NCBI GenBank assembly: GCA_032622095.1 | Contig: CP136061.1 | Coordinates: 48,305,797-48,369,796 of the forward strand | From: Siphonodentalium dalli | Lineage: Eukaryota > Mollusca > Scaphopoda > Gadilida > Siphonodentaliidae | DNA: 64,000 bases | Direction: 5' to 3' | Shown: positions 409 to 40,971 of the stretch, in pieces | Layout of the letters: each line of letters starts with the position of its first letter | Position numbering within the stretch: the stretch's first letter is position 1 | The notes under the pieces: generated by a model | What the model was told of the DNA's origin: nothing | What the model saw: the letters and a program-made list of their open reading frames with translations, nothing else | The model's database searches: none | Translations under genes and position numbers: made by a program

Positions 409-891
409 AATACGCACAAGCTTGACTACCAAGAGATATCTTATCGGGGTCCACGATATGATGGCTCTTGGTATACAATCGCGACCACGGGAGGCACGTG
501 ATGTTCGATTGAATATCAGAATGTTGGGTATCATATAATACCATATCCCATAATATGTCAAATATAGCGAAATATCGAAATATAAAATAAAACGAAAAAG
601 CGAAATAGGAAAATACATCGAAATCGAAATAGGAAAATACAGCGAAATAGCGAAATAGAACGAAAACTCGAAATAGGAACATACAGCGAAATAGCGAAAT
701 AGGGAGAAATATAGAACGAAATATATAAATATGAAATTATTTTTATAAACGAAATAACGGAGATATTTGAAAAGGTGTCTTTGACGAAATAACGGACATA
801 TTTGGAGAAGTGTTTTAAAGATTGTATACCAAGAGCCATCATATCGTGGACCCCGATAAGATATCTCTTGGTAGTCAAGCTTGTGCGTATT
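409..891. repeat. Foldback-type element: 72-bp perfect inverted repeat around a GAAATA minisatellite
   Basis: Bases 409-480 are the exact reverse complement of 820-891 (72 bp, no mismatch by eye), starting AATACGCACAAGC and ending GGTATACAATC. The loop between them holds a short-period array (about 555-760) of GAAATAGCGAAATA-like words with frequent AAATA units. Open frames across the loop are low-complexity Phe/Tyr/Ser reads of this repeat and are not genes. The layout suits a MITE or foldback transposon. No clear target duplication was found, so the element ends are uncertain. Confidence 0.75.
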
Positions 892-2356: not shown

Positions 2357-2432
2357 TTGAACGCCCAGTAAAATCTGACAAACTAGCATTGAACGCCGGG
2401 TACAATCTGACAAACTAGCATTGAACGCCCGG
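2357..2432 (+). repeat. 32-bp minisatellite, about 2.4 copies
   Basis: The unit begins TTGAACGCCC and ends GACAAACTAGCA. It recurs at 2357, 2389 and 2421 with one or two substitutions. Looser relatives of the first ten bases occur downstream to about 2670, so the array may once have been longer. Confidence 0.7.
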
Positions 2433-3690
2433 TATTGTTTTTATTATTTGTATTGAACGTCTAGTAAACACCCTGTAAAATGCCTTTTACGGCCGGTTAG
2501 TATCATATTTCTAACTTGATTTTAACATGCCACAAATGTACATTTTTACATTTCCACAGCCAATATTGCTACTTATTGTGCTAACAAATGTTTATTTAAA
2601 TGGTTAAATGTCACAGTCAAGATATGAGATGCATTAGATCATCCTACAAATAGTCATTGAATGTCCAGTGTTTGAGATTTTCCCTTGTTTGTTATCATAA
2701 CTAGCACTTTAACTATCATGAGTAACCATGAAAACCCTATAATCTTTTGTCAATTCGACCAAAGATAGTGGGTTTCCAAGGTTACACTCGAGAAAGCGAA
2801 ACCGTTTGTTTGCACATGATGGTTGGTATACAATAATATCGACACATAATACGGGGCATCCCAAATCCCAATGCGTCCACACACAGTGGAGATTAAAGAC
2901 TGAACATCTCATCAGGGGTCAATACTATGAACAATTTTATACCTGTAAATACAAATAGTATTTACAAATTTGTAAGAGCAAATTTGTGTCAAACATCACA
3001 GTGGTTTCATAGTACAGGGGAAATTGAGCCGTTTTGTTTGTACAATAAATTATGAATATACAAACATATTATTAACAGTTTAATAGTCAATTGTTATCGT
3101 CTCCGGCCATACCATTTCGGCCTAATAGGGACACGACGACGCGAGGGGTGACAGGTGGGGTGTTGGAAGGCTTGGTATGTGCGGCATAATGTGCCCCCAA
3201 CTTTGGTCAAAATATTTCAACAGTTGTAAATTTCATAGCGATAGGCTGACCCAAACATTTTACAAGCTCACATTGTCCTTATTGTTTAATTTCACAACCA
3301 ATAATAATGTGTATGGAGACCATTTAGTCTGAATCACTAGCCTAATTTCGACTTTTGTTGAAAATTATGGTATAAATGGCCATCAGATAGAACTTCTCCA
3401 AACTATTGCCGGTATCAGGTTAGAAATTTTAACAGACGGAAAGCTTGAGGTACCAGCTGGAAACTTTCAATCCAATCAGGGGGGGGGGGGGGGTCGTTCG
3501 TAAAACATTTCAGGCACGTATGCTGATTTTTTCCTTTCGACCTTTGTTGGGACCCACCCACCGTTTTCGGCAGTTTTTTCCGACCATTTTTGGACACCCA
3601 ACCCCCTTTTAACACTAAAATAGAGATTTGCGCATATTTGAGGGGGAAAATTCACTGTAAACAGCTGTATATAAATTTAGTGTGCATACT
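2433..3690. other. Unassigned stretch, poly-G run
   Basis: No gene is supported. A poly-G tract lies at about 3479-3494. The reading frames crossing it give artificial proline runs. Confidence 0.45.
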
Positions 3691-4016
3691 ATTTGTCATG
3701 GATGTTAATATTGACATGTAGATGGGAACGAGTCATTTTCGGGTCATTCAGCAAAAAAACACGGCTGCCAGCGGCCATCTTGGATTTTACTCTGTGCATG
3801 ACTAAATCCTTTAGCACGGGCTACAGGTCATAGCTTTGGTCGGATCATCATGAAATTTGTCATGAATGTTAATATTGACATGTAGATGGGAACGCGTCAT
3901 TTTGGGGTCATTCGGTTATAAAACATGGCCGCCAGCAGCCATCTTGTATTTTACTCTTTGCATGATTAAACCCTTTGGCACGGGCTACAGGTCGTACCTT
4001 TGGTCGGATCATCACG
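3691..4016 (+). repeat. Tandem duplication, 164-bp period, two copies
   Basis: The copies at 3691-3854 and 3855-4016 both open with ATTTGTCATG and share the words GTTAATATTGACATG and ACGGGCTACAGGTC, with roughly 10-15% divergence. Each contains a GGCCGCCA/GCCATCTT-rich segment. Similar words recur near 29080 and 32180, so this may belong to a dispersed repeat family. Confidence 0.75.
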
Positions 4017-5433
4017 ATAACTGTCTGCAGTCAGTTTAGCAGTTATAATTACATTATTTCTCTTATTCTGAGGTGTTTTAAGACAAACTCATTGCAAAAA
4101 ACAGTCAAAAAGACTTGCAGGGAAAAAACAAGTTGCGGAAAAATTGTTTGTTGGTCCCATCGAACCAATCACCCACCCACCCCGGCATACGTGCCCGAAG
4201 GAAATTTGTTTGACCCCCCCCCCCCGACCCAATGGGTACAAATTTTATTTTTTAAAACTGGGAGTTTGGTCTTGTTCAACGAGTGCAGTTGGAAAATTAA
4301 AGGTTGGGAGCCGATGAACACTCACTAGCCACGTCCCTGTGTCCGAATATGTTGTTACTTTTTCAGTTGATGGGAGGAGTGTCCACATCTAAATTTCATA
4401 TGCACCCGATATGCTACGAGTGTTAGGGATATAAATTATTATTATACCTTAGACTGGAAGATGGGTGAAACCCCTAAAAAGTAGGGGGGAAATAACTCAC
4501 CACTCTGCTCTCATTCACCCGTTACCAGCGTTGTCTGAGTACCTAGTTCAAATTATACGGACATGTGGAAGTTAAAACAACTGACACACAATTAATATGG
4601 GAAAGTTACAACGCGTGCTATTATTTTGTGATTATTGATATCGCCGGTACTATGAAACGATGAGCTAACATAAACTCGCCAATTTCACAAAGATCAACTA
4701 TTAATTATTGTAAATTTCTGACGGGCAAGGTGTCGCCTGTGAGTGATTCACAATATATTGAATCACGGCAAGCCTAAGTTACAAAAGAATTAACCAATCA
4801 TAAGTTGAGAGGTTGATCGCTGATGAGCTATCCAATCGGTACACGGATTGGTAAGTTGATGACCACATGTCTGCGCAAAGTTAATCAATAAATTGTTCGT
4901 TTGTAAATTGTGTATGTAAGTACAAATCTGTGTGCTATGGAGTAATACAACTAATTTGGTATCATTGTTTTCACAAATTACAACCATACCATTTGTGAAA
5001 ACCAAACATTATTTTGATGGTACAACATTATATATATTGTGCCCAGCCTATGATTTAAAACTGAATCGTCCCTCTTATCATAACATATCGAGGCAGGGAC
5101 GTGGCTCCGTTTATCAGGGGGTGACCATCACATGATCGAAGCAGGGACGTACTAAAGCTCTCAGTTATAGGAGGGGTGGTCATTCTATAATTTCAAACTG
5201 CTCCGATATCTAATAATATATCGAGACAGGGACGTGACTATATGGGCTCAGTTTGGTGATGAGGTATCCGTCCTATAATTTCAATACGCACCATTTGAAC
5301 CAAGTTCCACATAGCGATGGAATCGTATATCAAGAGGCGAGTACTTCCCCAGGGTGACTAACTTAGTTTAGTCAACATGACTGAGGCATAACATTAGTCA
5401 AAATTACCAGGGTGATATTAGTCATAACGACAA
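4017..5433. other. Unassigned stretch with repeated CAGGGACGTG motifs
   Basis: No gene is supported. The motif CAGGGACGTGGCTA, or close variants, occurs near 5095, 5146 and 5228 on the plus strand and near 4329 on the minus strand. It recurs at 6150, 35547 and 35930. This resembles the terminal motif of some hAT-like elements (known of the superfamily), but no complete element with matching 8-bp duplications was found. Confidence 0.4.
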
Positions 5434-6428
5434 CACCCCCGTGTACGTGGTATCGCCAAACCCAGGGTATCACCAAACCAGACCATGCGGTTTTGATAAA
5501 TGAACATATCTTTCATCAGATGAAGCTATATATCTCCTAGTTAAATGGTGATATCCACTATTCAAAACATAACTTCGCAAAGCGGTATGTTTCCTCAATA
5601 GGATAGCGATCATAGCTTGCTCTCACCCCGATAAATTTATTCATATCCGCTTTTATCATAAATAGTAGACGCTTTTTGACGTTAGGTAGTTTCTTTGAAA
5701 CATAATTATCAGTCATAGATGGCGGATAATGCGTGTAACAACAGAAAAATATTTGATTAATTAACCAAAACATTTTCTAGCCTGCAGAACGGTTCGCAAA
5801 AATACTATCTGCGTCCAAGTGTGGGTGCCCACCATTATTTCGGCTATCAAAGCCGCAGATCGATCCTGCGATGAAATGTCGCCAACCCAGAGCTGGATGT
5901 CAAAGATGCGAATGATATGCTTCACATTTTGACCGTTTCTGCTTGAAAATATCCAATTATCCTTCGGACAGGCCGGTACATGGACCATCTTTAGGGTGGG
6001 TTGCATGTGCAAGGGTGAAAACATTTATGTTTTTTTGTGTTTTATGTTCTAATGTCATAATAATAGTATAGGCTATTCTGTGTTATTCGACATTATAGGT
6101 CCGGAACTGTACAACGAATGAAAACATTAAATCAGAGTAAATCATGAGTTAGCAGGGACGTGGCTAGAGGGTCTCTGTTAGGGATGTTCGCCTAGATAGT
6201 TTCTAAATGCACCCCCTTCCGGTAAGTCTATTTGTACCCTCGTGTTAGATTCGAGTTTTCATCGCGTTTACGACGGGTTCTTCCAACTTTTGGATATGAC
6301 AACCCATAAGTTTAGATTTCATCTGGTGACCATTTCAGTCCTCAAATTTGGCTGAAATTATTTAAATTTTCTAAATATGCGGGTTTTCCTCTGAAAACAA
6401 TTTTGGCGATACCACGTACACGGGGGTG
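5434..6428. repeat. 27-bp perfect inverted repeat flanking the left foldback arm
   Basis: Bases 5434-5460 are an exact reverse complement of 6402-6428 (CACCCCCGTGTACGTGG...). Together they bracket a 995-bp segment that includes nearly all of the left arm of the larger inverted duplication (5464-6287). They could be the TIRs of a small transposon nested in or forming that arm. No clear target-site duplication was seen. Confidence 0.65.
5464..6287 (+). repeat. Left arm of a large (3.3-kb) inverted duplication
   Basis: This segment aligns as reverse complement along almost its whole length with 7939-8785. Shared words include the AACATATCTT, TAGCTTGCTCTCACC, GATCGATC and TGTACAGTTCC regions, with roughly 85% identity and several small indels. 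With the central minisatellite it forms a foldback-like structure. Open frames within it are parallel in both arms only because the DNA is shared. No protein domain was recognised. Confidence 0.75.
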
Positions 6429-6429
6429 A

Positions 6430-7020
6430 TCCAACTCGAACACAAACCATTTGCTAACTGTCATCTTAATACATCCAAAAAAGTGTACAAAACCCTCAAT
6501 AGAGTATTTATGACCATCAAGTGTGTTCCATACCATCCAATTGGTTTACTCGCTGGTTGGTTTGAGATATTCGATGATGGTTTTGTACACTAGTTGGGAC
6601 ACTCATTAGTTGGGATGTGGAACATTTTACATGGGGGTGGTTTTAGACACTAGTTGGTTTTAGACACTTCTGGTTCTGATGGTATGAGGTAATCGTCGTG
6701 ATATAATGAACAGTCATTAAATGGCGTGGGACACCCAGTGGAAGGTTTGAGGTTCTCAATTGATGGTTTTATTTGGTATACATATTGGGTGTTTCGAGAC
6801 TCTAGTTGGCTGATTTGTGACACCATTCTATGAACTGGGTTTGTTTGGTATAGCATATTAATTAAGATGTTGGCTTGAGACACCCGTTGCGTGTATTTAC
6901 GCTTTATATAGATGGTTTGGGACCCTCGGTTAGTGGTTTTGGACACTCATTGGATATATTTGGATAATATTTATGTTTCTTTTGACACTCATCTGAGGCA
7001 TATATAAATTATATTATAGC
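6430..7020. repeat. Degenerate 21-22 bp minisatellite, homologous to the core of the 4.2-kb array units
   Basis: Repeated words of the type GGTTTGGGACACTCATTGGAT occur throughout. The segment aligns with the centre of the tandem units (about 11395-12060), including TATTTGAAGGATGG-like and ACACTAGTTGG words. The similarity continues up to GACACTCAT at about 6981-6989, the point where the array units carry a Helitron. This looks like an older, Helitron-free relative of the array core. Confidence 0.65.
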
Positions 7021-8785: not shown

Positions 8786-8875
8786 CTCGGTAATGACCAA
8801 TATTGAGTCATAACTTTTCTTATAGTCACCGGGAAGGCGAAAATGTAAGTTCGTGGAAATTTTGTGCAAATAATT

Positions 8876-9168
8876 CCAATGACCAAATGATATATAATCC
8901 AGCACCAGAGACCGAGTTGAAAGCAGGATAGACTCAATAAATTCTCCAAAACACAGTTTGTGGTATATGCCTGTTTAACTGGTTCATTTTCCGACATGTC
9001 TGTGGTGTCTATGGAATGAAAACCAATGACCAAATGATATATAATCCAGCACCAGAGACCGAGTTGAAAGCAGGATAGACTCAATAAATTCTCCGAAACA
9101 CAGTTTGTGGCATATGTCTGTTTAACTGGTTCATTTTCCGACATGTCTGTGGTGTCTATGGAATAAGA
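8876..9168 (+). repeat. Direct tandem duplication, 147-bp period
   Basis: Copies at 8876-9022 and 9023-9168 both begin CCAATGACCAAATGATA and end near GTCTATGGAAT. They differ at only a handful of positions. The two copies give near-identical open frames that have no recognisable domain. Confidence 0.85.
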
Positions 9169-10554
9169 ACCTTTTATCCAAATAAGTTAGCATTTGTTGT
9201 GAGAGTTAAGTTCTGGTTTGTTAGTCTGGTCGTTGAGATTCGATTTTGAGGTTAACCTAGAACAAATTGTTTACAAGCTGTTTTTGGTGTCATTTTGTCG
9301 GGCAGAATCTAGGGAACAATATATCCAAAATCTGCTAAAATCCGCTTTGGGGAAAAATTTCCACAGCTCGTTGAAATGGAGTACTATTTATGGGTTTTTG
9401 TGTAAATTTTGCTGTTCCTTATTAGTCTAGTCAATCTGATGGAAAGAAAAACCCAACCGTGAACAAATTGCTATGCAATGTCTTTTGGTGTGTTGACTGT
9501 GACTATATCCATATGATAACATAACCAAAATCCGCGTGAATCCAAGAGTGGGAAAATCGTCATTTTTGGGTGAAAAGTGAGGAATATGTAAACAAAAAAG
9601 GTGAAAACTGTAATTTTCTGGTTGAGACTCAGATTTTAAGGTGAACCTATATTAAATTGGTAACAAGCTGTTGGTATAATTTTGTTGGGCAGAATATGGG
9701 GAACAATATATCCAAAATTCGCTTTGGGGGAAATTTTCCACATATCTTTGAAATAGGGTCCCATTTGTGTCTTTTTTGTGTCAAGTTTGCAGTTCCTTAT
9801 TATTCCAGTCAAACGGATGGAAGGAAACGACCAACCATGAACAAAATTAGCTTTTGGTCTTTTTGAGTGTGATTATACTCACATAATAACATATCCAAAA
9901 TCCCCATGAACCAGAAGTCGTAATTTTTGAGTCAAAATACTGGAATATGTAAACAAAAATGGTGAAAATTGGAATTTTTTTAATAAACAAATCTGCCAAC
10001 CATAAACGCTCAGTCGAGTTCCCTGACTGCCAAATGTGACCATATAATAATATATCCAAAATATCCATGCGTTTAATGAAGGGAAAGTCGTTAATTTAGA
10101 TACAAATGAAGAAAATGGTGAAAATTTGAATTTTTGTCTCCAGACTGGGGCCCCAATATTAAACTTGATCCATTTTTTCGTAATGATGTCTGCTCCAACT
10201 AATTTGCCGCTAACATGTGGCCGTGAATATTACGGCGCAATATGGTGGCAATTTCCTGGAGTGTACTACCATTCACTACATTGTCCTCTAAATGTATTAA
10301 TGTGACAGAAACCTGCAACAAAAAAAAACGCATTATTACTGTTGCCATAGCATAATTATGCCTGTCATTTCGTGCATAATTTGACCCTAATACTATAAAA
10401 TGGCGAATCCTAATCCGTTATAGTAAGTCATATCCCGAGGATTGGGCAATTCGGTGTCTAAGCAGTCTTCAAAATGACAGCGAAAATGTCAGTCGGAAGT
10501 GAACAATTGAAGTGTATTTTTTCTTACGATATCGAATAAACGTATAGCCATGTG

Positions 10555-12053
10555 AGTATCCAAATCCATACGACGGGCGCCCCAAATCCAAACATTGCTC
10601 CAAACCATCGACGGGGTGTCCCAATCCACCAAACGAGTTTCACAAACCACCAGACTGATGTAGACTGAGGTATGTATCTCCCCAAACGATGCTCAACTGG
10701 TGTCAGTACTCACACATATAGTCCCCAAACCATGTATTTGGTATTCCAACTCACCCAAAATGAATGTCATAAGCCACTAAATGAATGTCTCAATCGACCT
10801 GATTAAGGACCCAAACCAATCAACGAATGTTCCCAAACCACACCAGTAGTGCTCCATACGTTGCAACCTATGTTCGAAACAACATAATAGGCGTGTCCCA
10901 AGCCATCCAGTAGGTTCCAGAAATATCCAATGAGTGTCCATAACCATCAGATGAGTAAAACATACAATGAGCACAAATTAAGTGCGTCAAACCACTCAAT
11001 GAGTGCCCAAACCACGCAATGGGTGTACCACGGTTACCAAGCCATCCATCGGGTGTTCGAAACCCCACGATAGGCAGACATCCAATATGTAACCCATGCC
11101 ATATGTCATACAACATACAACTGTCGTCTAAATCCATTCAACTGTAGTGTCCCAAACGACCCAACCAGTGACCCAAATCGGCCACGCAGTGTCTCAATGC
11201 ACAAAAACCAGTATCTAAAATCTATAGCGAGTGTCCCAAACCACGCAATGTGAACACTCCACCAATTGGTGTCCCAAAAGCATCCAACTGAAGTCACAAA
11301 TTACCCAGCGGGTGACCCAAACCATAAAACTAACATCATAAACCATCCAACAAGTTTCCTATCCACCAACTGCACTGGACTGGTGTTGCGAACCAACAAC
11401 CAACTGTCATATCAATACATCTACAATAGTGTACAAACATTCCATCGAGTATTTCACACGATCAAGTGAGTTTGTCAAACCATCCAATGAGTTTACCAAA
11501 ACATAGTTTGATATATTTGAAGGATGGTTTTGTGCTCTAGTTTGGGACACATATTAAATGACTGGGACATTCAGTGGGTGGTCTGAGACACTAGTTGGAC
11601 GTTTTATACACTCCTGCTGGTTTTGATAATCATCGTGTGGCTTGGGACACCCATTGGGTGATTATGGACACTCATCTGTTGGTTTGGGACACCCATTGGA
11701 TGGTTTGTGGTACACACTTGATGATTTGAGACACCCATTTGTGTGGTTTGGGATACCACATACATAAGTTGGGACACTCGATGGTTGACATATGGCAATC
11801 GTTGGATGGTATGGAACACACAATGGACTGGTTTAGGCACTAATTGGATGGTTTTTGACACTATTTGGGTGGACTGTTACATATTATGTGGTTTGGGACA
11901 CTCGTTGGCTGATTTGGAATGCCCCTTCTATGGACTGGGGTACTCACTGATTAATTTGGTATATTATTAAGAAGGCGGTTGAGACACCTGTTGTGTGGTT
12001 TTACACTCCTTGGATGGTTTGGCACACGCGTTAAGTTGATTCTGACACTCATC
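10555..12053. repeat. Orientation-switching 21-22 bp minisatellite in unit 1
   Basis: From about 10555 to 11500 the repeat reads as CCAAACCATCCAATGAGTGT-like words. From about 11525 to 12053 it reads as the reverse complement (GGGACACTCGTTGGATGG-like). The two arms therefore face each other around about 11515. Individual repeats are degenerate, so pairing would be imperfect. Translations give biased, meaningless Trp/Gly or His/Pro-rich peptides. Confidence 0.75.
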
Positions 12054-12452
12054 TCATATACATTTTGAAGACCTCTGTTTGTCTGTCTGTATGTATGTCT
12101 GTCTGTCTGTATGTCATTTATACAAATCTACGATTCTCGACCGATCGGGACGAAACTTGGTACGTGTGTGTAGATTGACCAGGCGGTCGACGTTGTCGAA
12201 TTTTATCGGGTCGCCGAGCCCGTGGGACGCCAGCTTCGTGCATGCGCAGACGAGATATCGGAAACGGGTGGAGCTGTCGACTTGAAATTTGCTATGTGAA
12301 TGTATCTTGCCCCGGATACGAATTTTATCGGGTCGCCGAGCCCGTGCGACGCCAGCTTCGCGCATGCGCAGACCAGATCTCGGAAACGGGTGGAGCTATC
12401 GACTGAAATTTGGTTTTTAAATAGCCCGGGCAACGTCGGGCTCATCGGCTAG
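12054..12452 (+). mobile_element. Nested non-autonomous Helitron in unit 1
   Basis: The element begins TCTCATATACATTTTG after an A. It ends with a GC-rich hairpin (GCCCGggcaacgtCGGGC) followed by CTAG and then T. This is the 5'-TC...hairpin...CTRR-3' architecture inserted between A and T that defines Helitrons. It contains a (GTCT)n run and two internal copies of a GAATTTTATCGGGTCGCCGA-type repeat, each with a GCATGCGCAG core. The same internal sequence occurs inverted in the Helitrons at 46921-55529. No Rep or helicase is encoded. Confidence 0.85.
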
Positions 12453-14768
12453 TTTGATGTATTTCTATACTAGTTTGGTTGCTGTGGACACTAATCAAAT
12501 TATATTTGATACCGGATATGAGAAGATTTAGTTAAAAATCAATGACGAAATAGATATTTTTGACTTTCGATTGCAATATTCCCCGCCATTATGGGACATT
12601 GTAGGGACAAATTCTCGACATACAGATCATTATTATCGGATTAGGGTCCGACATAATTTACTGTTGTGCTAGCCAATACATGTTTTTCGTCTAAATGGAA
12701 ACAATCTAGTGAACTTTAACGAAAATTCCCAATTATACTACTTTCAGTAGCCATAGTGTCCCTATTTTTGGAAGTGATTGCCTAGTTTCTGCTAAAATGG
12801 ACACTAGTGGTTCATATCTGACGTCTAATGAGTATTAAGTACACTGGTGTGTTCGATTTGCGGTTATTCTGGACATTAAAATAATATTTGATTTTTCTTC
12901 GAAATTTAGTACAATCTATTTCGAATTTGAAGGGTCCAAATTCCCAATCCTCGTGATATGGCTCACAATGATCATACATTGATTTAAAATGGTGTGGTGT
13001 ATGTTGGCACAAATGGCCATTTAAACCATATTTCTTATAAATGGAAACGATCTGGTGAAATTTAGTGAAAATTGTCCAATTTTACCAATTTCGGTCGCCC
13101 TTTTGTCCGCCATTTTGATTTTTTACAATCAAAGTGTACACGAAATAACATACGTCTGTCATGGCAACAATAATAATTTGTTTATGTTGCATATTCCTGC
13201 CATTTGTATAACTTTAATTTAAATGACATTCATGTGTATATTTCATAAGAAACGGAAAATCATACATAAAAAACACAAATATGACCTTTTTTTCAAAATG
13301 CTCTAGAAAATTTTCCCCAAAGCGGGTTTCAGCGGATTTTGGATATCTTGTTCCCCAGGTTCTGCCCGACTAAATGACAGCAAAAAACAGCTTGTAAATA
13401 ATTTGTTCTAGGTACAATGCTTCAACGACCAGACTAGTCTGGTCGTTGAGATTCGATTTTGAGGTTAACCTAGAACAAATTGTTTACAAGCTGTTTTTGG
13501 TGTCATTTTGTCGGGCAGAATCTGGGGAACAATATATCCAAAAACCGCTAAAAATCCGCTATGGGGAAAAATTTCCACAGCTCGTTGAAATGGGGTACTA
13601 TTTATGGGTTTTTGTGTAAATTTTGCTGTTCCTTATTAGTCTAGTCAATCTGATGGAAAGAAAAACCCAACCGTGAACAAATTGCTATGCAATGTCTTTT
13701 GGTGTGTTGACTGTGACTATATCCATATGATAACATAACCAAAATCCGCGTGAATCCCAGAGTGGGAAAATCGTCATTTTTGGGTGAAAAGTGAGGAATA
13801 TGTAAACAAAAATGGTGAAAACTGTAATTTTCTGGTTGAGACTCAGATTTTAAGGTGAACCTATATTAAATTGGTAACAAGCTGTTGGTATAATTTTGTT
13901 GGGCAGAATATGGGGAACAATATATCCAAAATTCGCTTTGGGGGAAATTTTCCACATATCTTTGAAATAGGGTCCCATTTGTGTCCTTTTTGTGTCAAGT
14001 TTGCAGTTCCTTATTATTCCAGTCAAACGGATGGAAGGAAACGACCAACCATGAACAAAATTAGCTTTTGGTCTTTTTGAGTGTGATTATACTCACATAA
14101 TAACATATCCAAAATCCCCATGAACCAGAAGTCGTAATTTTTGAGTCAAAATACTGGAATATGTAAACAAAAATGGTGAAAATTGGAATTTTTTTAATAA
14201 ACAAATCTGCCAACCATAAACGCTCAGTCGAGTTCCCTGACTGCCAAATGTGACCATATAATAATATATCCAAAATATCCATGCGTTTAATGAAGGGAAA
14301 GTCGTTAATTTAGATACAAATGAAGAAAATGGTGAAAATTTGAATTTTTGTCTCCAGACTGGGGCCCCAATATTAAACTTGATCCATTTTTTCGTAATGA
14401 TGTCTGCTCCAACTAATTTGCCGCTAACATGTGGCCGTGAATATTACGGGGCAATATGGTGGCAATTTCCTGGAGTGTACTACCATTCACTACAGTGTCC
14501 TCTAAATGTATTAATGTGACAGAAACCTGCAACAACAAACAACGCATTATTACTGTTGCCATAGCATAATTATGCCTGTCATTTCGTGCATAATTTGACC
14601 CTAATACTATAAAATGGCGAATCCTAATCCGTTATAGTAAGTCATATCCCGAGGATTGGGCAATTCGGTGTCTAAGCAGTCTTCAAAATGACAGCGAAAA
14701 TGTCAGTCGGAAGTGAACAATTGAAGTGTATTTTTTCTTACGATATCGAATAAACGTATAGCCATGTG

Positions 14769-16265
14769 AGTATCCAAATCCATACGACGGGCGCCCCAAA
14801 TCCAAACATTGCTCCAAACCATCGACGGGGTGTCCCAATCCACCAAACGAGTTTCACAAACCACCAGACTGATGTAGACTGAGGTATGTATCTCCCCAAA
14901 CGATGCTCAACTGGTGTCAGTACTCACACATATAGTCCCCAAACCATGTATTTGGTATTCCAACTCACCCAAAATGAATGTCACAAGCCACTAAATGAAT
15001 GTCTCAATCGACCTGATTAAGGACCCAAACCAATCAACGAATGTTCCCAAACCACACCAGTAGTGCTCCATACGTTGCAACCTATGTTCGAAACAACATA
15101 ATAGGCGTGTCCCAAGCCATCCAGTAGGTTCCAGAAATATCCAATGAGTGTCCATAACCATCAGATGAGTAAAACATACAATGAGCACAAATTAAGTGCG
15201 TCAAACCACTCAATGAGTGCCCAAACCACGCAATGGGTGTACCACGGTTACCAAGCCATCCATCGGGTGTTCGAAACCCCACGATAGGCAGACATCCAAT
15301 ATGTAACCCATGCCATATGTCATACAACATACAACTGTCGTCTAAATCCATTCAACTGTAGTGTCCCAAACGACCCAACCAGTGACCCAAATCGGCCACG
15401 CAGTGTCTCAATGCACAAAAACCAGTATCTAAAATCTATAGCGAGTGTCCCAAACCACTCAATGTGAACACTCCACCAATTGGTGTCCCAAAAGCATCCA
15501 ACTGAAGTCACAAATTACCCAGCGGGTGACCCAAACCATAAAACTAACATCATAAACCATCCAACAAGTTTCCTATCCACCAACTGCACTGGACTGGTGT
15601 TGCGAACCAACAACCAACTGTCATATCAATACATCTACAATAGTGTACAAACATTCCATCGAGTATTTCACACGATCAAGTGAGTTTGTCAAACCATCCA
15701 ATGAGTTTACCAAAACATAGTTTGATATATTTGAAGGATGGTTTTGTGCTCTAGTTTGGGACACATATTAAATGACTGGGACATTCAGTGGGTGGTCTGA
15801 GACACTAGTTGGACGTTTTATACACTCCTGCTGGTTTTGATAATCATCGTGTGGCTTGGGACACCCATTGGGTGATTATGGACACTCATCTGTTGGTTTG
15901 GGACACCCATTGGATGGTTTGTGGTACACACTTGATGATTTGAGACACCCATTTGTGTGGTTTGGGATACCACATACATAAGTTGGGACACTCGATGGTT
16001 GACATATGGCAATCGTTGGATGGTATGGAACACACAATGGACTGGTTTAGGCACTAATTGGATGGTTTTTGACACTATTTGGGTGGACTGTTACATATTA
16101 TGTGGTTTGGGACACTCGTTGGCTGATTTGGAATGCCCCTTCTATGGACTGGGGTACTCACTGATTAATTTGGTATATTATTAAGAAGGCGGTTGAGACA
16201 CCTGTTGTGTGGTTTTACACTCCTTGGATGGTTTGGGACACGCGTTAAGTTGATTCTGACACTCA
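14769..16265. repeat. Orientation-switching minisatellite in unit 2
   Basis: This is the same core as in unit 1, with the change of orientation near 15729. It has the shorter left arm. Confidence 0.7.
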
Positions 16266-16658
16266 TCTCATATACATTTTGAAGACCTCTGTTTGTCTGT
16301 CTGTCTGTCTGTCTGTATGTCATTTATACAAATCTACGATTCTCGACCGATCGGGACGAAACTTGGTACGTGTGTGTAGATTGACCAGGCGGTCGACGTT
16401 GTCGAATTTTATCGGGTCGCCGAGCCCGTGGGACGCCAGCTTCGTGCATGCGCAGACGAGATATCGGAAACGGGTGGAGCTGTCGACTTGAAATTTGCTA
16501 TGTGAATGTATCTTGCCCCGGATACGAATTTTATCGGGTCGCCGAGCCCGTGCGACGCCAGCTTCGCGCATGCGCAGACCAGATCTCGGAAACGGGTGGA
16601 GCTATCGACTGAAATTTGGTTTTTGAATAGCCCGGGCAACGTCGGGCTCATCGGCTAG
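16266..16658 (+). mobile_element. Nested non-autonomous Helitron in unit 2
   Basis: It has the same TC start, terminal hairpin, CTAG end and A|T insertion point as in unit 1. The (GTCT)n run differs in length and composition, consistent with microsatellite slippage after amplification of the array. Confidence 0.85.
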
Positions 16659-18969
16659 TTTGATGTATTTCTATACTAGTTTGGTTGCTGTGGACACTAA
16701 TCAAATTATATTTGATACCGGATATGAGAAGATTTAGTTAAAAATCAATGACGAAATAGATATTTTTGACTTTCGATTGCAATATTCCCCGCCATTATGG
16801 GACATTGTAGGGACAAATTCTCGACATACAGATCATTATTATCGGATTAGGGTCCGACATAATTTACTGTTGTGCTAGCCAATACATGTTTTTCGTCTAA
16901 ATGGAAACAATCTAGTGAACTTTAACGAAAATTCCCAATTATACTACTTTCAGTAGCCATAGTGTCCCTATTTTTGGAAGTGATTGCCTAGTTTCTGCTA
17001 AAATGGACACTAGTGGTTCATATCTGACGTCTAATGCGTATTAAGTACACTGGTGTGTTCGATTTGCGGTTATTCTGGACATTAAAATAATATTTGATTT
17101 TTCTTCGAAATTTAGTACAATCTATTTCGAATTTGAAGGGTCCAAATTCCCAATCCTCGTGATATGGCTCACAATGATCATACATTGATTTAAAATGGTG
17201 TGGTGTATGTTGGCACAAATGGCCATTTAAACCATATTTCTTATAAATGGAAACGATCTGGTGAAATTTAGTGAAAATTGTCCAATTTTACCAATTTCGG
17301 TCGCCCTTTTGTCCGCCATTTTGATTTTTTACAATCAAAGTGTACACGAAATAACATACGTCTGTCATGGCAACAATAATAATTTGTTTATGTTGCATAT
17401 TCCTGCCATTTGTATAACTTTAATTTAAATGACATTCATGTGTATATTTCATAAGAAACGGAAAATCATACATAAAAAACACAAATATGACCTTTTTTTC
17501 AAAATGCTCTAGAAAATTTTCCCCAAAGCGGGTTTCAGCGGATTTTGGATATCTTGTTCCCCAGGTTCTGCCCGACTAAATGACAGCAAAAAACAGCTTG
17601 TAAACAATTTGTTCTAGGTACAATGCTTCAACGACCAGACTAGTCTGGTCGTTGAGATTCGATTTTGAGGTTAACCTAGAACAAATTGTTTACAAGCTGT
17701 TTTTGGTGTCATTTTGTCGGGCAGAATCTGGGGAACAATATATCCAAAAACCGCTAAAAATCCGCTATGGGGAAAAATTTCCACAGCTCGTTGAAATGGG
17801 GTACTATTTATGGGTTTTTGTGTAAATTTTGCTGTTCCTTATTAGTCTAGTCAATCTGATGGAAAGAAAAACCCAACCGTGAACAAATTGCTATGCAATG
17901 TCTTTTGGTGTGTTGACTGTGACTATATCCATATGATAACATAACCAAAATCCGCGTGAATCCCAGAGTGGGAAAATCGTCATTTTTGGGTGAAAAGTGA
18001 GGAATATGTAAACAAAAATGGTGAAAACTGTAATTTTCTGGTTGAGACTCAGATTTTAAGGTGAACCTATATTAAATTGGTAACAAGCTGTTGGTATAAT
18101 TTTGTTGGGCAGAATATGGGGAACAATATATCCAAAATTCGCTTTGGGGGAAATTTTCCACATATCTTTGAAATAGGGTCCCATTTGTGTCCTTTTTGTG
18201 TCAAGTTTGCAGTTCCTTATTATTCCAGTCAAACGGATGGAAGGAAACGACCAACCATGAACAAAATTAGCTTTTGGTCTTTTTGAGTGTGATTATACTC
18301 ACATAATAACATATCCAAAATCCCCATGAACCAGAAGTCGTAATTTTTGAGTCAAAATACTGGAATATGTAAACAAAAATGGTGAAAATTGGAATTTTTT
18401 TAATAAACAAATCTGCCAACCATAAACGCTCAGTCGAGTTCCCTGACTGCCAAATGTGACCATATAATAATATATCCAAAATATCCATGCGTTTAATGAA
18501 GGGAAAGTCGTTAATTTAGATACAAATGAAGAAAATGGTGAAAATTTGAATTTTTGTCTCCAGACTGGGGCCCCAATATTAAACTTGATCCATTTTTTCG
18601 TAATGATGTCTGCTCCAACTAATTTGCCGCTAACATGTGGCCGTGAATATTACGGGGCAATATGGTGGCAATTTCCTGGGGTGTACTACCATTCACTACA
18701 GTGTCCTCTAAATGTATTAATGTGACAGAAACCTGCAACAACAAACAACGCATTATTACTGTTGCCATAGCATAATTATGCCTGTCATTTCGTGCATAAT
18801 TTGACCCTAATACTATAAAATGGCGAATCCTAATCCGTTATAGTAAGTCATATCCCGAGGATTGGGCAATTCGGTGTCTAAGCAGTCTTCAAAATGACAG
18901 CGAAAATGTCAGTCGGAAGTGAACAATTGAAGTGTATTTTTTCTTACGATATCGAATAAACGTATAGCC

Positions 18970-20617
18970 AATATGTAGTCATATATGCCTCCATACGAGT
19001 TTGCAAAGCCACCAATAGTTTCATAATACATCAAATGATTGTCCCAAACCACACAACGAGTCCGCCAAACCATATACAGAGTTACAAAACCCATATGGTA
19101 TCCAAAAAAAAAACAACATGTGAGTATCCAAATCCATACGACGGGCGCCCCAAATCCAAACATTGCTCCAAACCATCGACGGGGTGTCCCAATCCACCAA
19201 ACGAGTTTCACAAACCACCAGACTGATGTAGACTGAGGTATGTATCTCCCCAAACGATGCTCAACTGGTGTCAGTACTCACACATATAGTCCCCAAACCA
19301 TGTATTTGGTATTCCAACTCACTCAAAATGAATGTCACAAGCCACTAAATGAATGTCTCAATCGACCTGATTAAGGACCCAAACCAATCAACGAATGTTT
19401 CCAAACCACACCAGTAGTACTCCATACGTTGCAACCTATGTTCGAAACAACATAATAGGCGTGTCCCAAGCCATCCAGTAGGTTCCAGAAATATCCAATG
19501 AGTGTCCATAACCATCAGATGAGTAAAACATACAATGAGCACAAATTAAGTGCGTCAAACCACTCAATGGGTGCCCAAACCACGCAATGGGTGTACCACG
19601 GTTACCAAGCCATCCATCGGGTGTTCGAAACCACACGATAGGCAGACATCCAATATGTAACCCATGCCATATGTCATACAACATACAACTGTCGTCTAAA
19701 TCCATTCAACTGTAGTGTCCCAAACGACCCAACCAGTGACCCAATCGGCCACGCAGTGTCTCAATGCACAAAACCAGTATCTAAAATCTATAGCGAGTGT
19801 CCCAAACCACTCAATGTGAACACTCCACCAATTGGTGTCCCAAAAGCATCCAACTGAAGTCACAAATTACCCAGCAGGTGACCCAAACCATAAAACTAAC
19901 ATCATAAACCATCCAACAAGTTTCCTATCCACCAACTGCACTGGACTGGTGTTGCGAACCAACAACCAACTGTCATATCAATACATCTACAATAGTGTAC
20001 AAACATTCCATCGAGTATTTCACACGATCAAGTGAGTTTGTCAAACCATCCAATGAGTTTACCAAAACATAGTTTGATATATTTGAAGGATGGTTTTGTG
20101 CTCTAGTTTGGGACACATATTAAATGACTGGGACATTCAGTGGGTGGTCTGAGACACTAGTTGGACGTTTTATACACTCCTGCTGGTTTTGATAATCATC
20201 GTGTGGCTTGGGACACCCATTGGGTGATTATGGACACTCATCTGTTGGTTTGGGACACCCATTGGATGGTTTGTGGTACACACTTGATGATTTGAGACAC
20301 CCATTTGTGTGGTTTGTGATACCACATACATAAGTTGGGACACTCGATGGTTGACATATGGCAATCGTTGGATGGTATGGAACACACATTGGACTGGTTT
20401 AGGCACTAATTGGTTGGTTTTTGACACTATTTGGGTGGACTGTTACATATTATGTGGTTTGGGACACTCGTTGGCTGATTTGGAATGCCCCTTCTATGGA
20501 CTGGGGTACTCACTGATTAATTTGGTATATTATTAAGAAGGCGGTTGAGACACCTGTTGTGTGGTTTTACACTCCTTGGATGGTTTGGGACACGCGTTAA
20601 GTTGTTTCTGACACTCA
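18970..20617. repeat. Orientation-switching minisatellite in unit 3
   Basis: This is the longer form of the core. The extra piece contains the same CCAAACCA...GAGT-type repeats plus a run of about nine A residues near 19107. The orientation reverses near 20080. Confidence 0.7.
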
Positions 20618-20639
20618 TCTCATATACATTTTGAGGACC

Positions 20640-20672
<33 letters not shown>

Positions 20673-21014
20673 ATGTCATTTATACAAATCTACGATTCTC
20701 GACCGATCGGGACGAAACTTGGTACGTGTGTGTAGATTGACCAGGCGGTCGACGTTGTCGAATTTTATCGAGTCGCCGAGCCCGTGCGACGCCAGCTTCG
20801 TGCATGCGCAGACGAGATATCGGAAACGGGTGGAGCTGTCGACTTGAAATTTGCTATGTGAATGTATCTTGCCCCGGATACGAATTTTATCGGGTCGCCG
20901 AGCCCGTGCGACGCCAGCTTCGCGCATGCGCAGACCAGATCTCGGAAACGGGTGGAGCTATCGACTGAAATTTGGTTTTTGAATAGCCCGGGCAACGTCG
21001 GGCTCATCGGCTAG
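20618..21014 (+). mobile_element. Nested non-autonomous Helitron in unit 3
   Basis: Same boundaries and insertion point as in the other units. It has TTTTGAGGACC near the 5' end, where units 1 and 2 have TTTTGAAGACC, a variant shared with unit 4. Confidence 0.85.
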
Positions 21015-23325
21015 TTTGATGTATTTCTATACTAGTTTGGTTGCTGTGGACACTAATCAAATTATATTTGATACCGGATATGAGAAGATTTAGTTAAAAA
21101 TCAATGACGAAATAGATATTTTTGACTTTCGATTGCAATATTCCCCGCCATTATGGGACATTGTAGGGACAAATTCTCGACATACAGATCATTATTATCG
21201 GATTAGGGTCCGACATAATTTACTGTTGTGCTAGCCAATACATGTTTTTCGTCTAAATGGAAACAATCTAGTGAACTTTAACGAAAATTCCCAATTATAC
21301 TACTTTCAGTAGCCATAGTGTCCCTATTTTTGGAAGTGATTGCCTAGTTTCTGCTAAAATGGACACTAGTGGTTCATATCTGACGTCTAATGAGTATTAA
21401 GTACACTGGTGTGTTCGATTTGCGGTTATTCTGGACATTAAAATAATATTTGATTTTTCTTCGAAATTTAGTACAATCTATTTCGAATTTGAAGGGTCCA
21501 AATTCCCAATCCTCGTGATATGGCTCACAATGATCATACATTGATTTAAAATGGTGTGGTGTATGTTGGCACAAATGGCCATTTAAACCATATTTCTTAT
21601 AAATGGAAACGATCTGGTGAAATTTAGTGAAAATTGTCCAATTTTACCAATTTCGGTCGCCCTTTTGTCCGCCATTTTGATTTTTTACAATCAAAGTGTA
21701 CACGAAATAACATACGTCTGTCATGGCAACAATAATAATTTGTTTATGTTGCATATTCCTGCCATTTGTATAACTTTAATTTAAATGACATTCATGTGTA
21801 TATTTCATAAGAAACGGAAAATCATACATAAAAAACACAAATATGACCTTTTTTTCAAAATGCTCTAGAAAATTTTCCCCAAAGCGGGTTTCAGCGGATT
21901 TTGGATATCTTGTTCCCCAGGTTCTGCCCGACTAAATGACAGCAAAAAACAGCTTGTAAACAATTTGTTCTAGGTACAATGCTTCAACGACCAGACTAGT
22001 CTGGTCGTTGAGATTCGATTTTAAGGTTAACCTAGAACAAATTGTTTACAAGCTGTTTTTGGTGTCATTTTGTCGGGCAGAATCTGGGGAACAATATATC
22101 CAAAAACCGCTAAAAATCCGCTATGGGGAAAAATTTCCACAGCTCGTTGAAATGGGGTACTATTTATGGGTTTTTGTGTAAATTTTGCTGTTCCTTATTA
22201 GTCTAGTCAATCTGATGGAAAGAAAAACCCAACCGTGAACAAATTGCTATGCAATGTCTTTTGGTGTGTTGACTGTGACTATATCCATATGATAACATAA
22301 CCAAAATCCGCGTGAATCCCAGAGTGGGAAAATCGTCATTTTTGGGTGAAAAGTGAGGAATATGTAAACAAAAATGGTGAAAACTGTAATTTTCTGGTTG
22401 AGACTCAGATTTTAAGGTGAACCTATATTAAATTGGTAACAAGCTGTTGGTATAATTTTGTTGGGCAGAATATGGGGAACAATATATCCAAAATTCGCTT
22501 TGGGGGAAATTTTCCACATATCTTTGAAATAGGGTCCCATTTGTGTCCTTTTTGTGTCAAGTTTGCAGTTCCTTATTATTCCAGTCAAACGGATGGAAGG
22601 AAACGACCAACCATGAACAAAATTAGCTTTTGGTCTTTTTGAGTGTGATTATACTCACATAATAACATATCCAAAATCCCCATGAACCAGAAGTCGTAAT
22701 TTTTGAGTCAAAATACTGGAATATGTAAACAAAAATGGTGAAAATTGGAATTTTTTTAATAAACAAATCTGCCAACCATAAACGCTCAGTCGAGTTCCCT
22801 GACTGCCAAATGTGACCATATAATAATATATCCAAAATATCCATGCGTTTAATGAAGGGAAAGTCGTTAATTTAGATACAAATGAAGAAAATGGTGAAAA
22901 TTTGAATTTTTGTCTCCAGACTGGGGCCCCAATATTAAACTTGATCCATTTTTTCGTAATGATGTCTGCTCCAACTAATTTGCCGCTAACATGTGGCCGT
23001 GAATATTACGGGGCAATATGGTGGCAATTTCCTGGGGTGTACTACCATTCACTACAGTGTCCTCTAAATGTATTAATGTGACAGAAACCTGCAACAACAA
23101 ACAACGCATTATTACTGTTGCCATAGCATAATTATGCCTGTCATTTCGTGCATAATTTGACCCTAATACTATAAAATGGCGAATCCTAATCCGTTATAGT
23201 AAGTCATATCCCGAGGATTGGGCAATTCGGTGTCTAAGCAGTCTTCAAAATGACAGCGAAAATGTCAGTCGGAAGTGAACAATTGAAGTGTATTTTTTCT
23301 TACGATATCGAATAAACGTATAGCC

Positions 23326-24973
23326 AATATGTAGTCATATATGCCTCCATACGAGTTTGCAAAGCCACCAATAGTTTCATAATACATCAAATGATTGTCC
23401 CAAACCACACAACGAGTCCGCCAAACCATATACAGAGTTACAAAACCCATATGGTATCCAAAAAAAAAACAACATGTGAGTATCCAAATCCATACGACGG
23501 GCGCCCCAAATCCAAACATTGCTCCAAACCATCGACGGGGTGTCCCAATCCACCAAACGAGTTTCACAAACCACCAGACTGATGTAGACTGAGGTATGTA
23601 TCTCCCCAAACGATGCTCAACTGGTGTCAGTACTCACACATATAGTCCCCAAACCATGTATTTGGTATTCCAACTCACTCAAAATGAATGTCACAAGCCA
23701 CTAAATGAATGTCTCAATCGACCTGATTAAGGACCCAAACCAATCAACGAATGTTTCCAAACCACACCAGTAGTACTCCATACGTTGCAACCTATGTTCG
23801 AAACAACATAATAGGCGTGTCCCAAGCCATCCAGTAGGTTCCAGAAATATCCAATGAGTGTCCATAACCATCAGATGAGTAAAACATACAATGAGCACAA
23901 ATTAAGTGCGTCAAACCACTCAATGGGTGCCCAAACCACGCAATGGGTGTACCACGGTTACCAAGCCATCCATCGGGTGTTCGAAACCACACGATAGGCA
24001 GACATCCAATATGTAACCCATGCCATATGTCATACAACATACAACTGTCGTCTAAATCCATTCAACTGTAGTGTCCCAAACGACCCAACCAGTGACCCAA
24101 TCGGCCACGCAGTGTCTCAATGCACAAAACCAGTATCTAAAATCTATAGCGAGTGTCCCAAACCACTCAATGTGAACACTCCACCAATTGGTGTCCCAAA
24201 AGCATCCAACTGAATTCACAAATTACCCAGCAGGTGACCCAAACCATAAAACTAACATCATAAACCATCCAACAAGTTTCCTATCCACCAACTGCACTGG
24301 ACTGGTGTTGCGAACCAACAACCAACTGTCATATCAATACATCTACAATAGTGTACAAACATTCCATCGAGTATTTCACACGATCAAGTGAGTTTGTCAA
24401 ACCATCCAATGAGTTTACCAAAACATAGTTTGATATATTTGAAGGATGGTTTTGTGCTCTAGTTTGGGACACATATTAAATGACTGGGACATTCAGTGGG
24501 TGGTCTGAGACACTAGTTGGACGTTTTATACACTCCTGCTGGTTTTGATAATCATCGTGTGGCTTGGGACACCCATTGGGTGATTATGGACACTCATCTG
24601 TTGGTTTGGGACACCCATTGGATGGTTTGTGGTACACACTTGATGATTTGAGACACCCATTTGTGTGGTTTGTGATACCACATACATAAGTTGGGACACT
24701 CGATGGTTGACATATGGCAATCGTTGGATGGTATGGAACACACATTGGACTGGTTTAGGCACTAATTGGATGGTTTTTGACACTATTTGGGTGGACTGTT
24801 ACATATTATGTGGTTTGGGACACTCGTTGGCTGATTTGGAATGCCCCTTCTATGGACTGGGGTACTCACTGATTAATTTGGTATATTATTAAGAAGGCGG
24901 TTGAGACACCTGTTGTGTGGTTTTACACTCCTTGGATGGTTTGGGACACGCGTTAAGTTGTTTCTGACACTCA
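23326..24973. repeat. Orientation-switching minisatellite in unit 4
   Basis: Long form as in unit 3, reversing near 24436. Confidence 0.7.
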
Positions 24974-24995
24974 TCTCATATACATTTTGAGGACC

Positions 24996-25028
<33 letters not shown>

Positions 25029-25370
25029 ATGTCATTTATACAAATCTACGATTCTCGACCGATCGGGACGAAACTTGGCACGTGTGTGTAGATTGACCAG
25101 GCGGTCGACGTTGTCGAATTTTATCGAGTCGCCGAGCCCGTGCGACGCCAGCTTCGTGCATGCGCAGACGAGATATCGGAAACGGGTGGAGCTGTCGACT
25201 TGAAATTTGCTATGTGAATGTATCTTGCCCCGGATACGAATTTTATCGGGTCGCCGAGCCCGTGCGACGCCAGCTTCGCGCATGCGCAGACCAGATCTCG
25301 GAAACGGGTGGAGCTATCGACTGAAATTTGGTTTTTGAATAGCCCGGGCAACGTCGGGCTCATCGGCTAG
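24974..25370 (+). mobile_element. Nested non-autonomous Helitron in unit 4
   Basis: Same boundaries as in the other units: TC start after A, hairpin, CTAG before T. Confidence 0.85.
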
Positions 25371-26543
25371 TTTGATGTATTTCGATACTAGTTTGGTTGC
25401 TGTGGACACTAATCAAATTATATTTGATACCGGATATGAGAAGATTTAGTTAAAAATCAATGACGAAATAGATATTTTTGACTTTCGATTGCAATATTCG
25501 CCGCCATTATGGGACACTGTAGGGACAAATTCTCGACATACAGCTCATTATTATCGGATTAGGGTCCGACATAATTTACTGTTGTGCTAGCCAATACATG
25601 TTTTTCGTCTAAATGGAAACAATCTAGTGAACTTTAACGAAAATTCCCAATTATACTACTTTCAGTAGCCATAGTGTCCCTATTTTTGGAAGTGATTGCC
25701 TAGTTTCTGCTAAAATGGACACTAGTGGTTCATATCTGACGTCTAATGAGTATTAAGTACACTGGTGTGTTCGATTTGCGGTTATTCTGGACATTAAAAT
25801 AATATTTGATTTTTCTTCGAAATTTAGTACAATCTATTTCGAATTTGAAGGGTCCAAATTCCCAATCCTCGTGATATGGCTCACAATGATCATACATTGA
25901 TTTAAAATGGTGTGGTGTATGTTGGCACAAATGGCCATTTAAACCATATTTCTTATAAATGGAAACGATCTGGTGAAATTTAGTGAAAATTGTCCAATTT
26001 TACCAATTTCGGTCGCCCTTTTGTCCGCCATTTTGAATTTTTACAATCAAAGTGTACACGAAATAACATACGTCTGTCATGGCAACAATAATAATTTGTT
26101 TATGTTGCATATTCCTGCCATCTGTATAACTTTAATTTAAATGACATTCATGTGTATATTTCATAAGAAACGGAAAATCATACATAAAAAACACAAATAT
26201 GACCTTTTTTTCAAAATGCTCTAGAAAATTTTCCCCAAAGCGGATTTCAGCGGATTTTTGATATCTTGTTCCCCAGGTTCTGCCCGACTAAATGACACAA
26301 ACAAACAGCTTGTAAACAATTTGTTCTAGGTACAATGCTTCAACGACCAGACTACTATGTCGAATTCACTGAGCAGCTTGTTCAAATAGAGGCTACTAGA
26401 TAATATACCAGTGCAATTCCAAGTAAGTAAATTTAACATTATATAAATATACAATGTTTTCAAAAAGACATCAATAAGACAAAATGTGTGTGCACACTGC
26501 AATCAATCGTACGGAAGCCCATATAAATAATATTATTAAATAT

Positions 26544-26938
26544 CTATATATATATAGACACGGATAACCTATGGCATGTGTTGTTGTTGTTGTTGTTGTC
26601 TAGATATGAATATATCATATGGTACCCAGTCAGTGCAAATTGTGGATTTGGGCCAGAAATTATATAAGGCCTTTTGCAGAATTCGGCGTCGTTAGATTGG
26701 ACATTGGTCCGAGCTGTTCGCGTTCCGTCATTCCTCGGTGTTAAGAGTCGTACTATTGAGAATTTTACTTTGTTGTCAAACAAAATGTTCGCGATTTCCT
26801 CTGCTGTGACATGCCCTGGAATGTTTGCCAAGAATAGCCTGGATGTCTTTATGGGGTGTTGGTTGCGTGAGCGGTAAATGTCTGGATCGCCGTCTTGCCT
26901 ATCTGCTTTGTGCTGAGATCGGCGCGTGCGGCAACCAT
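26544..26938 (-). pseudogene. Broken RRM-like fragment of a non-LTR ORF1
   Basis: On the minus strand the frame running from 26831 to 26544 extends upstream without an ATG and contains RLFLANIPGHVTAEEIAN...VRLLTPRNDGTRTAR, which fits the beta-alpha-beta start of a small RRM-like domain. It is laid out like the C-terminal domain of the LINE-B ORF1 in this window (KFYIGRISPN...FIRLISSTRFGTQSAR). An ATG at 26938 opens a different frame that stops after about 29 codons, so a frameshift probably separates start and domain. It ends in an asparagine run from a GTT microsatellite (26580-26598). The family assignment is inferred from layout only. Confidence 0.4.
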
Positions 26939-37408: not shown

Positions 37409-37472
37409 ATGTTACAGGAACGGTATATTGTCATGGGCAGGAAAGATAACTCTAATGATTTCAAGCTAATCT

Positions 37473-38159: not shown

Positions 38160-38177
38160 CAATTTTATCGACACTAT

Positions 38178-40859: not shown

Positions 40860-40971
40860 CGCGTTACGAAATCTCGTCGGAAGCGACGCTTGGCTTCTCT
40901 GTAAAATAGGTACGATTCAGCACTAATGGAATGAGGCTTCCCGTCAGATATCCAATATCTCCGAGCTTGCT

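Follow-up and report, generated by a model that had tools for sequence, protein, structure and literature searches.

How does a DNA transposon with intact ends come to be stacked as a satellite? For the passage from transposon to satellite array, the usual explanations are repeated insertion and the duplication of inner repeats. The question is raised here by a stretch of 64,000 nucleotides from the scaphopod Siphonodentalium dalli (C1:48305797-48369796, hereafter the window; the genome searched is the 2.23-Gb assembly of nine contigs), in which four units of a terminal-inverted-repeat (TIR) element lie head to tail at positions 9224-26352, with pairwise identities of 98.9-99.7%. The units meet at three exact copies of the palindrome CCAGACTAGTCTGG, at window positions 13429, 17635 and 21991 (up to two mismatches were allowed, and none of 100 shuffled sequences gave three matches), and every junction reads CCAGAC-TA-GTCTGG. 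Without the TA, the units span 9224-13434 (4211 bp), 13437-17640 (4204 bp), 17643-21996 (4354 bp) and 21999-26352 (4354 bp); a TA stands between all units and beyond both ends of the array. The four-copy array and its palindromic junction, described earlier in a first-pass annotation of the window, are confirmed as real in the assembly. We consider it probable, though well short of certain, that the TA served to join element ends head to tail, by way of a circle or of an end fusion between sister chromatids, and that unequal exchange then brought the dimer to four units.

The ends of the element are defined by its dispersed single copies. Such copies, for which the first-pass annotation had suggested a genome search, do exist: the left end is found in dozens of other places, with the homology ending at the proposed terminus (the best 40 of 2758 candidates from a search with the junction region were scored, so that the counts are lower bounds), and the exact 15-mer TAGTCTGGTCGTTGA occurs 524 times in forward and 564 times in reverse orientation, compared with 1 and 0 for the control. 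Target-site duplications (TSDs) were tabulated for 16 copies, namely eight full copies of the array subfamily, six of a 2.2-kb subfamily and two long ones, with C4:226.89 Mb left out. The 3 bp before the left TA equal the 3 bp after the right TA in 14 of the 16; among 240 mismatched flank pairs, such agreement is seen in 6. Each of the two exceptions has a single differing base, and a duplication of 4 bp or more fits none of the 16. The copy L019 lies within a dispersed repeat; in a relative of this repeat that lacks the element (in L009), the TAA target is present once and there is no extra TA. Because the duplication lies outside the TA and the empty site has no extra TA, the TA is the element's own end, and the termini are TAGTCTGG...CCAGACTA with a 3-bp target duplication. 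The first-pass annotation had placed the TA outside the element, as target DNA; this reading is rejected, and the 2-bp TA duplication of Tc1/mariner elements is not what the copies show. A subfamily of ~4.3-4.7 kb (C3:2.78, C4:63.06, C4:77.78 and C9:7.82 Mb, among others) has ends that are 98-100% alike and has probably moved recently.

The inverted terminal similarity of the array unit runs over ~200 bp, with unit positions 32-200 matching 4165-4333 at 81% and the outermost 13 bp identical. The TIRs that had been annotated are therefore present, while the length of 130-140 bp assigned to them is too short. The units differ in length mainly through a 148-bp indel, which represents a deletion in units 1 and 2, since all eight outgroup single copies keep the segment (one with a smaller gap inside it). 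The unit looks non-autonomous, because no stop-to-stop frame of the last unit is longer than 122 amino acids. An Rfam search gave no match.

At the array junctions, 2 bp are common to the two termini, and no target duplication separates them. As the TSD of 3 bp lies outside the TA, an insertion next to an existing copy should instead leave CCAGACTA-nnn-TAGTCTGG, and the duplication between two copies that marks a double insertion is absent here. In the genome as a whole, the 20-mer CGACCAGACTAGTCTGGTCG is found at eight places with up to two mismatches and the exact junction 14-mer at seven, with no occurrence of the control patterns in either case. The TA-sharing junction is present at five loci, i.e., the window, C1:112.63, C2:142.58, C1:228.24 and C6:117.28 Mb. 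The dimer at C1:112.63 Mb belongs to a 4.3-kb family with 1.3-kb inverted ends, while that at C2:142.58 Mb belongs to the 2.2-kb subfamily and has TT rather than TA as the junction dinucleotide; the dimers at C1:228.24 and C6:117.28 Mb belong to a family that is 85-92% like the coding element L041, discussed below. At all five loci the right end meets the left end, head to tail, which has a probability of 1/32 under random orientation, and the palindromic search patterns would equally have found inverted pairs. By exact matching, the TA-sharing form is seen at four of the five loci and the TSD-spaced form at none: the exact TSD-spaced pattern with three free bases occurs at two places, both in a 35-bp satellite unrelated to the element, and exact matches to TAGTCTGGTC-type termini 0-20 bp apart are absent genome-wide. 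The first-pass suggestion of an insertion into the TA next to an existing copy is thus not borne out, there being no TSD between the copies and no TSD-spaced element pair by exact search, and a circle fits better than such a neighbouring insertion.

Four other junction places, each compared with five element sequences, were dropped. No element lies near C1:160.8 Mb (one mismatch) or near C2:139.3 Mb (exact 14-mer); C9:156.7 Mb (two mismatches) falls inside Helitron-type repeats; and at C8:94.8 Mb (two mismatches) just one of the two sides carries an end of a related element. Adjoining this last, chance-like match is a diverged relative of the family with long inverted repeats (L012 ~3797-4467, C8:94.82 Mb), 71% alike to L043. 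Three further readings were rejected. C4:226.89 Mb is not a second array but a segmental duplication that takes in the flank, and the pair at C1:112.6 Mb, whose family has the 1.3-kb inverted ends noted above, is head to tail and not inverted. The equally spaced ends at C1:87.7 Mb do not form a comparable array, as the monomer combines a truncated element with other DNA (two stretches). The latter locus is a macrosatellite (C1:87745515-87865375; L023, L024) with 28 listed ends spaced 4392-4865 bp apart, its monomers in the two stretches consisting of a truncated part of the element family plus other DNA.

The paired copies are close to each other. Those at C1:112.6 Mb are 99.9% alike over 773 bp, their identity to two other copies being 97.7-98.0%, and those at C2 are 99.5% alike over 1471 bp, against 96-98% to six others. 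The C1:228 Mb pair, compared within the pair alone, is 100% identical over 531 bp, and the C6 pair is 100% identical over 344 bp; to judge from their end coordinates, both copies of the C6 dimer (117276310-117285625) are seemingly complete, with 4659 bp each. Two of these loci show additional structure. The first copy of the C1:112.6 Mb dimer (L009 1-2139, C1:112607629-112625720) may be ~18 kb long and contains a 915-bp internal direct repeat at 99.7%. The C2 dimer (L011, L056; C2:142.57-142.59 Mb) lies within a larger tandem duplication with a period of 5716 bp at 99.6%, and the next copy there has a complete right end followed by TTG, equal to the TTG ahead of the left ends.

In the window, the kinship of the founders is marked by a nested insertion. 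Helitrons have a 5' TC, a 3' CTRR with a hairpin, and insert between A and T without a TSD. All four array units carry a Helitron-like insertion with these features (5' TC, hairpin GCCCGGGCAACGTCGGGC, 3' CTAG, located between A and T), which the alignment shows to be absent from the eight single copies of the array subfamily. The 23-mer at its right boundary has 135 genome matches at up to three mismatches, of which those with zero or one mismatch occur only in the four array units, the others among the matches listed having two or three. Since all units share an insertion that is not found at that site elsewhere, the array founders are taken to be sister copies. Near-identical founders are thereby observed at the window as well as at C1:112.6 Mb and C2.

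The order of the variants along the units records how the array grew. The 44 substitutions of the three main patterns are ordered at 35 sites, with changes of unit 1 only coming first, then those separating units 1 and 2 from units 3 and 4, and then those of unit 4 only; none of 20,000 shuffled orders reaches 35 ordered sites, the best reaching 31. Such an order implies that a dimer of founders X and Y was lengthened by two crossovers between misaligned copies. The switch from Y to X lies within unit positions 1106-1329 in unit 2 and within 3147-3388 in unit 3, the latter interval having been set beyond site 3341, where the change is taken to be private to unit 1. A satellite formed by unequal exchange should consist of mosaic units whose crossovers lie inside them, and this is what is found, in agreement with the earlier proposal that a dimer had expanded in this way. 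X and Y differ by ~0.8% (35 ordered sites over ~4205 bp), and private changes are several times fewer, with one private substitution in unit 2 and one in unit 3, which suggests that the growth was recent relative to the dimer. The positions of all features are collected in Table 1.

Table 1. Units, junctions, nested insertions, crossover intervals and flanking repeats of the array (window positions).
Feature	Positions	Strand	Remarks
Unit 1 (founder X) with terminal TAs	9222..13436	+	X-type 148-bp deletion
Unit 2, chimera	13435..17642	+	Y-type left of crossover, X-type right; has 148-bp deletion
Unit 3, chimera	17641..21998	+	Y-type until later crossover, X-type after
Unit 4 (founder Y)	21997..26354	+	
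Junction 1	13429..13442	.	right terminus CCAGACTA and left terminus TAGTCTGG, one TA in common
Junction 2	17635..17648	.	sequence as junction 1
Junction 3	21991..22004	.	sequence as junction 1
Nested Helitron-like insertion, unit 1	12052..12452	+	
Nested Helitron-like insertion, unit 2	16266..16658	+	
Nested Helitron-like insertion, unit 3	20618..21014	+	
Nested Helitron-like insertion, unit 4	24974..25370	+	
First unequal crossover, unit 2	14540..14763	.	unit-4 positions 1106-1329; narrowed by 148-bp indel
Second unequal crossover, unit 3	20787..21028	.	unit-4 positions 3147-3388
Left flank, R1	8792..9219	.	dispersed repeat cut at array boundary
Right flank, R2	26357..26725	.	different dispersed repeat cut at array boundary

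Elsewhere in the window, 122-bp tandem repeats (47029-47296, 52101-52368 and 53270-53575) resemble the body of the nested Helitron-like element and form part of a direct-repeat complex that occupies 45.8-59.2 kb. A direct duplication of 1375 bp at 99.6% (36803-38177 and 43989-45362) brackets a region with a long frame (38535-40916, minus strand) that is reverse-transcriptase-like by eye.

In the mechanism that we favour, the units would be full copies of a non-autonomous TIR element with 3-bp target duplications, which the transposase of a related coding element presumably cut exactly at the ends. The right end of one copy would then have joined the left end of a sister copy via the terminal TA, giving the dimer X-TA-Y. 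This may have happened in two ways: either an excised circle with a right end-TA-left end junction recombined into a resident copy, or cut ends fused between sister chromatids or two sister copies, and both routes give head-to-tail identical copies. X and Y would subsequently have drifted ~0.8% apart, and the two crossovers indicated by the variant order would have made the chimeric middle units. Bacterial insertion sequences (IS) of the IS30 and IS3 types form head-to-tail dimers and circles in which a short spacer of a few base pairs separates the right end from the left. The abutting ends are a point of likeness, the element considered here being of eukaryotic type and known from its sequence. 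A bolder version, which we regard as unlikely, is that the shared-TA junction is a regular intermediate of transposition, such that a circle or head-to-tail dimer leaves and cutting at the right end-TA-left end junction gives each new end a TA. If this were true, the element would, like some bacterial IS elements, pass through such a stage and duplicate 3 bp on integration, and the dimers seen in the genome would be intermediates that homologous recombination or a failed integration had trapped.

Several observations weigh against a head-to-tail fusion as the origin of the array. No circle was observed, and the second copy is truncated at C1:112.6 and C2:142.6 Mb, a state that aborted repair would explain no less well than a circle. 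The TSD-spaced searches were exact only, so that older double insertions may be missed. Little can be drawn from the identity of the C6 pair, whose terminal 320 bp are matched at 100% by single copies at C3 and C9 too, and the identity of the C1:228 Mb pair was not set against close relatives. Nine of the 44 variants are out of order and are read as private mutations. In addition, the array is bordered by a different repeat on each side, and the 3 bp outside its two ends do not match. R1 and R2 each continue differently elsewhere (four R1 and six R2 copies), and no R1-R2 join is found among the best 40 of 465 candidates. The bases adjoining the array are TGT on the left, where all four R1 copies have TAT, and CTA on the right, where the R2 copies have CGA. 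Since a simple circle integration into one resident predicts matching duplications, a further rearrangement or a two-site fusion is needed; the unmatched flanks point either to a two-site fusion, to a rearrangement of the locus, or to a first copy that landed exactly at an older R1/R2 boundary. To read the right-hand CTA-TGT as the record of two nested insertions is not our first choice, as CGATGTCG is present in all six R2 copies.

The main rival explanation, which we nevertheless find doubtful, is a second insertion targeted at the resident's terminal bases, where it would have separated CCAGAC from TA with GAC or a shortened form as the TSD, followed by unequal exchange. Such an insertion yields CCAGAC followed directly by TAGTCTGG without any loss. 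TGT closes the left flank, and the sequence at the right outer end is CCAGACTA-C-TA-TGT, so that TA-TGT could represent the leftover TA of X plus its TSD, if the duplication of Y were only 1 bp; the TAT of the four R1 copies, compared with TGT at the array, also looks as if TGT were foreign to R1. However, the same insertion predicts GACTA after the last unit, where CTA is found, and a 1-bp duplication is seen in none of the 16 dispersed copies. The right flank CGATGTCGAATTC is present in all six R2 copies, and CTATGT is therefore better read as R2's own. Targeted insertion further requires the first copy to stand exactly at the R1/R2 boundary, it does not predict the head-to-tail orientation at five of five loci, and the near-identity of the paired copies also speaks against it.

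Tandem duplication without transposase, in which microhomology-mediated repair or template switching uses the TA as a 2-bp microhomology, is improbable in our view. Other kilobase-scale tandem duplications that include flanks do exist, at C4:226.89 Mb, the C2 locus and C1:87.7 Mb, but the duplications of these elements seen otherwise break elsewhere, and it would be a remarkable coincidence for breakpoints to fall exactly on both element ends five times over, even if these loci were found via that junction. Head-to-tail units with one junction type would also result from a rolling-circle concatemer inserted as a block, a mechanism proposed for Bari1 (PMC8834629). The equal copies of such a concatemer should show independent private changes, whereas the differences between the array units fall in three ordered blocks and the 148-bp deletion is common to units 1 and 2; moreover, each of the other four loci has yielded only one such junction, and we consider a block insertion very improbable. 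An assembly duplication, e.g., two haplotypes joined, is scarcely credible, even though the array is known from the assembly alone, with its one set of nine contigs. Two haplotype dimers predict units 1 and 3 and units 2 and 4 as the closest pairs, but the closest pairs are neighbours (99.57, 99.64 and 99.66%), compared with 99.24% for 1-3 and 99.33% for 2-4, and four further loci have the same junction.

A related element with coding capacity, which the earlier annotation had proposed to seek, was found in two forms. L031 is a 7965-bp element with the same termini and a TAA/TAA target duplication, whose coding stretch is broken up into a number of frames; the last of these frames, used as a query, gave 114 matches with E values up to 0.001 (best 109 of 3852 candidates scored). 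One relative, L041 (C8:100.82 Mb; 606-6527 of the fetched stretch, 5922 bp), has the ends TAGTCTGGCTG...CCAGACTA, TTA on both sides and a single frame of 1575 amino acids. The C-terminal part of its protein contains acidic motifs that are PIN/XPG-like by eye and a cysteine-rich tail. Pfam searches with the coding pieces gave only matches below the cut-off, the best being LacAB_rpiB at E 5e-4, with no match to XPG_I, and sequence searches of the Protein Data Bank (PDB) with these pieces gave nothing convincing; the seven XPG_I matches of the genome lie away from the coding relative. AcademX transposons carry an XPG nuclease. Their TSD is given as 3 or 4 bp (PMC10045372), and the 3 bp found here (14 of 16 copies, and TTA/TTA in L041) agree with this. 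The large protein may add a second point of likeness, its C-terminal region resembling PIN/XPG by eye. The likeness consists of the TSD and these by-eye motifs, with no match of Pfam XPG_I to the coding relative, and membership of the coding partner in AcademX is a lead, not a finding. A separate, hAT-like frame is nested in a long element copy (L032 3175-4596, C1:100.05 Mb), with a weak, below-cut-off match to Dimer_Tnp_hAT.

The nearest precedent for the array appears to be the Bari1 clusters of Drosophila melanogaster, whose copies follow one another head to tail. At their junctions the left terminus has lost its first two nucleotides (CA), and either a circle or a rolling mechanism was put forward for these clusters (PMC8834629, PMC4877112). 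The authors of the 2022 review state that they know of no comparable case in the literature (PMC8834629). As far as these accounts go, the two systems are alike in having full-length TIR units head to tail, one invariant junction with two terminal nucleotides missing (here one of the two TAs) and recombination between copies, and Bari1 has two clusters in one genome. They differ in that Bari1, a Tc1/mariner element, has TA target duplications and has lost CA, while here the TSD is 3 bp and the terminal TA is shared. The Bari1 clusters, in the same accounts, contain ~80 and 6 copies and are heterochromatic; the present genome has one tetramer and four two-copy junctions, spread over several subfamilies. 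Membership in the Bari family is unlikely because of the different TSD. Dimers of transposable elements (TEs) have otherwise been attributed mainly to insertion-site preference, and an expansion of hobo to 16 tandem copies is on record (PMC12628747); among TE double insertions, those of P-elements are described with TSD-sized junctions (PMC12628747, PMC9659126, on McGurk and Barbash 2018). Such DNA-transposon dimers resemble the present ones in being able to grow into tandem arrays by exchange, but they are put down mainly to repeated insertions into a single target, whereas no TSD lies between the copies here. Among the open-licence PMC literature, no matching paper was found on multimers of miniature inverted-repeat transposable elements (MITEs) or on tandem arrays with circular intermediates.

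Siphonodentalium dalli would accordingly provide a second system to set beside the long-standing puzzle of Bari1. The exact junction found at five loci of its genome is of a different kind, and it recurs across subfamilies that include one related to a coding element; the window preserves the following step as well, an array caught in its growth by unequal exchange after the second crossover. With such a junction at hand, the circle hypothesis becomes directly testable across 20 bp.

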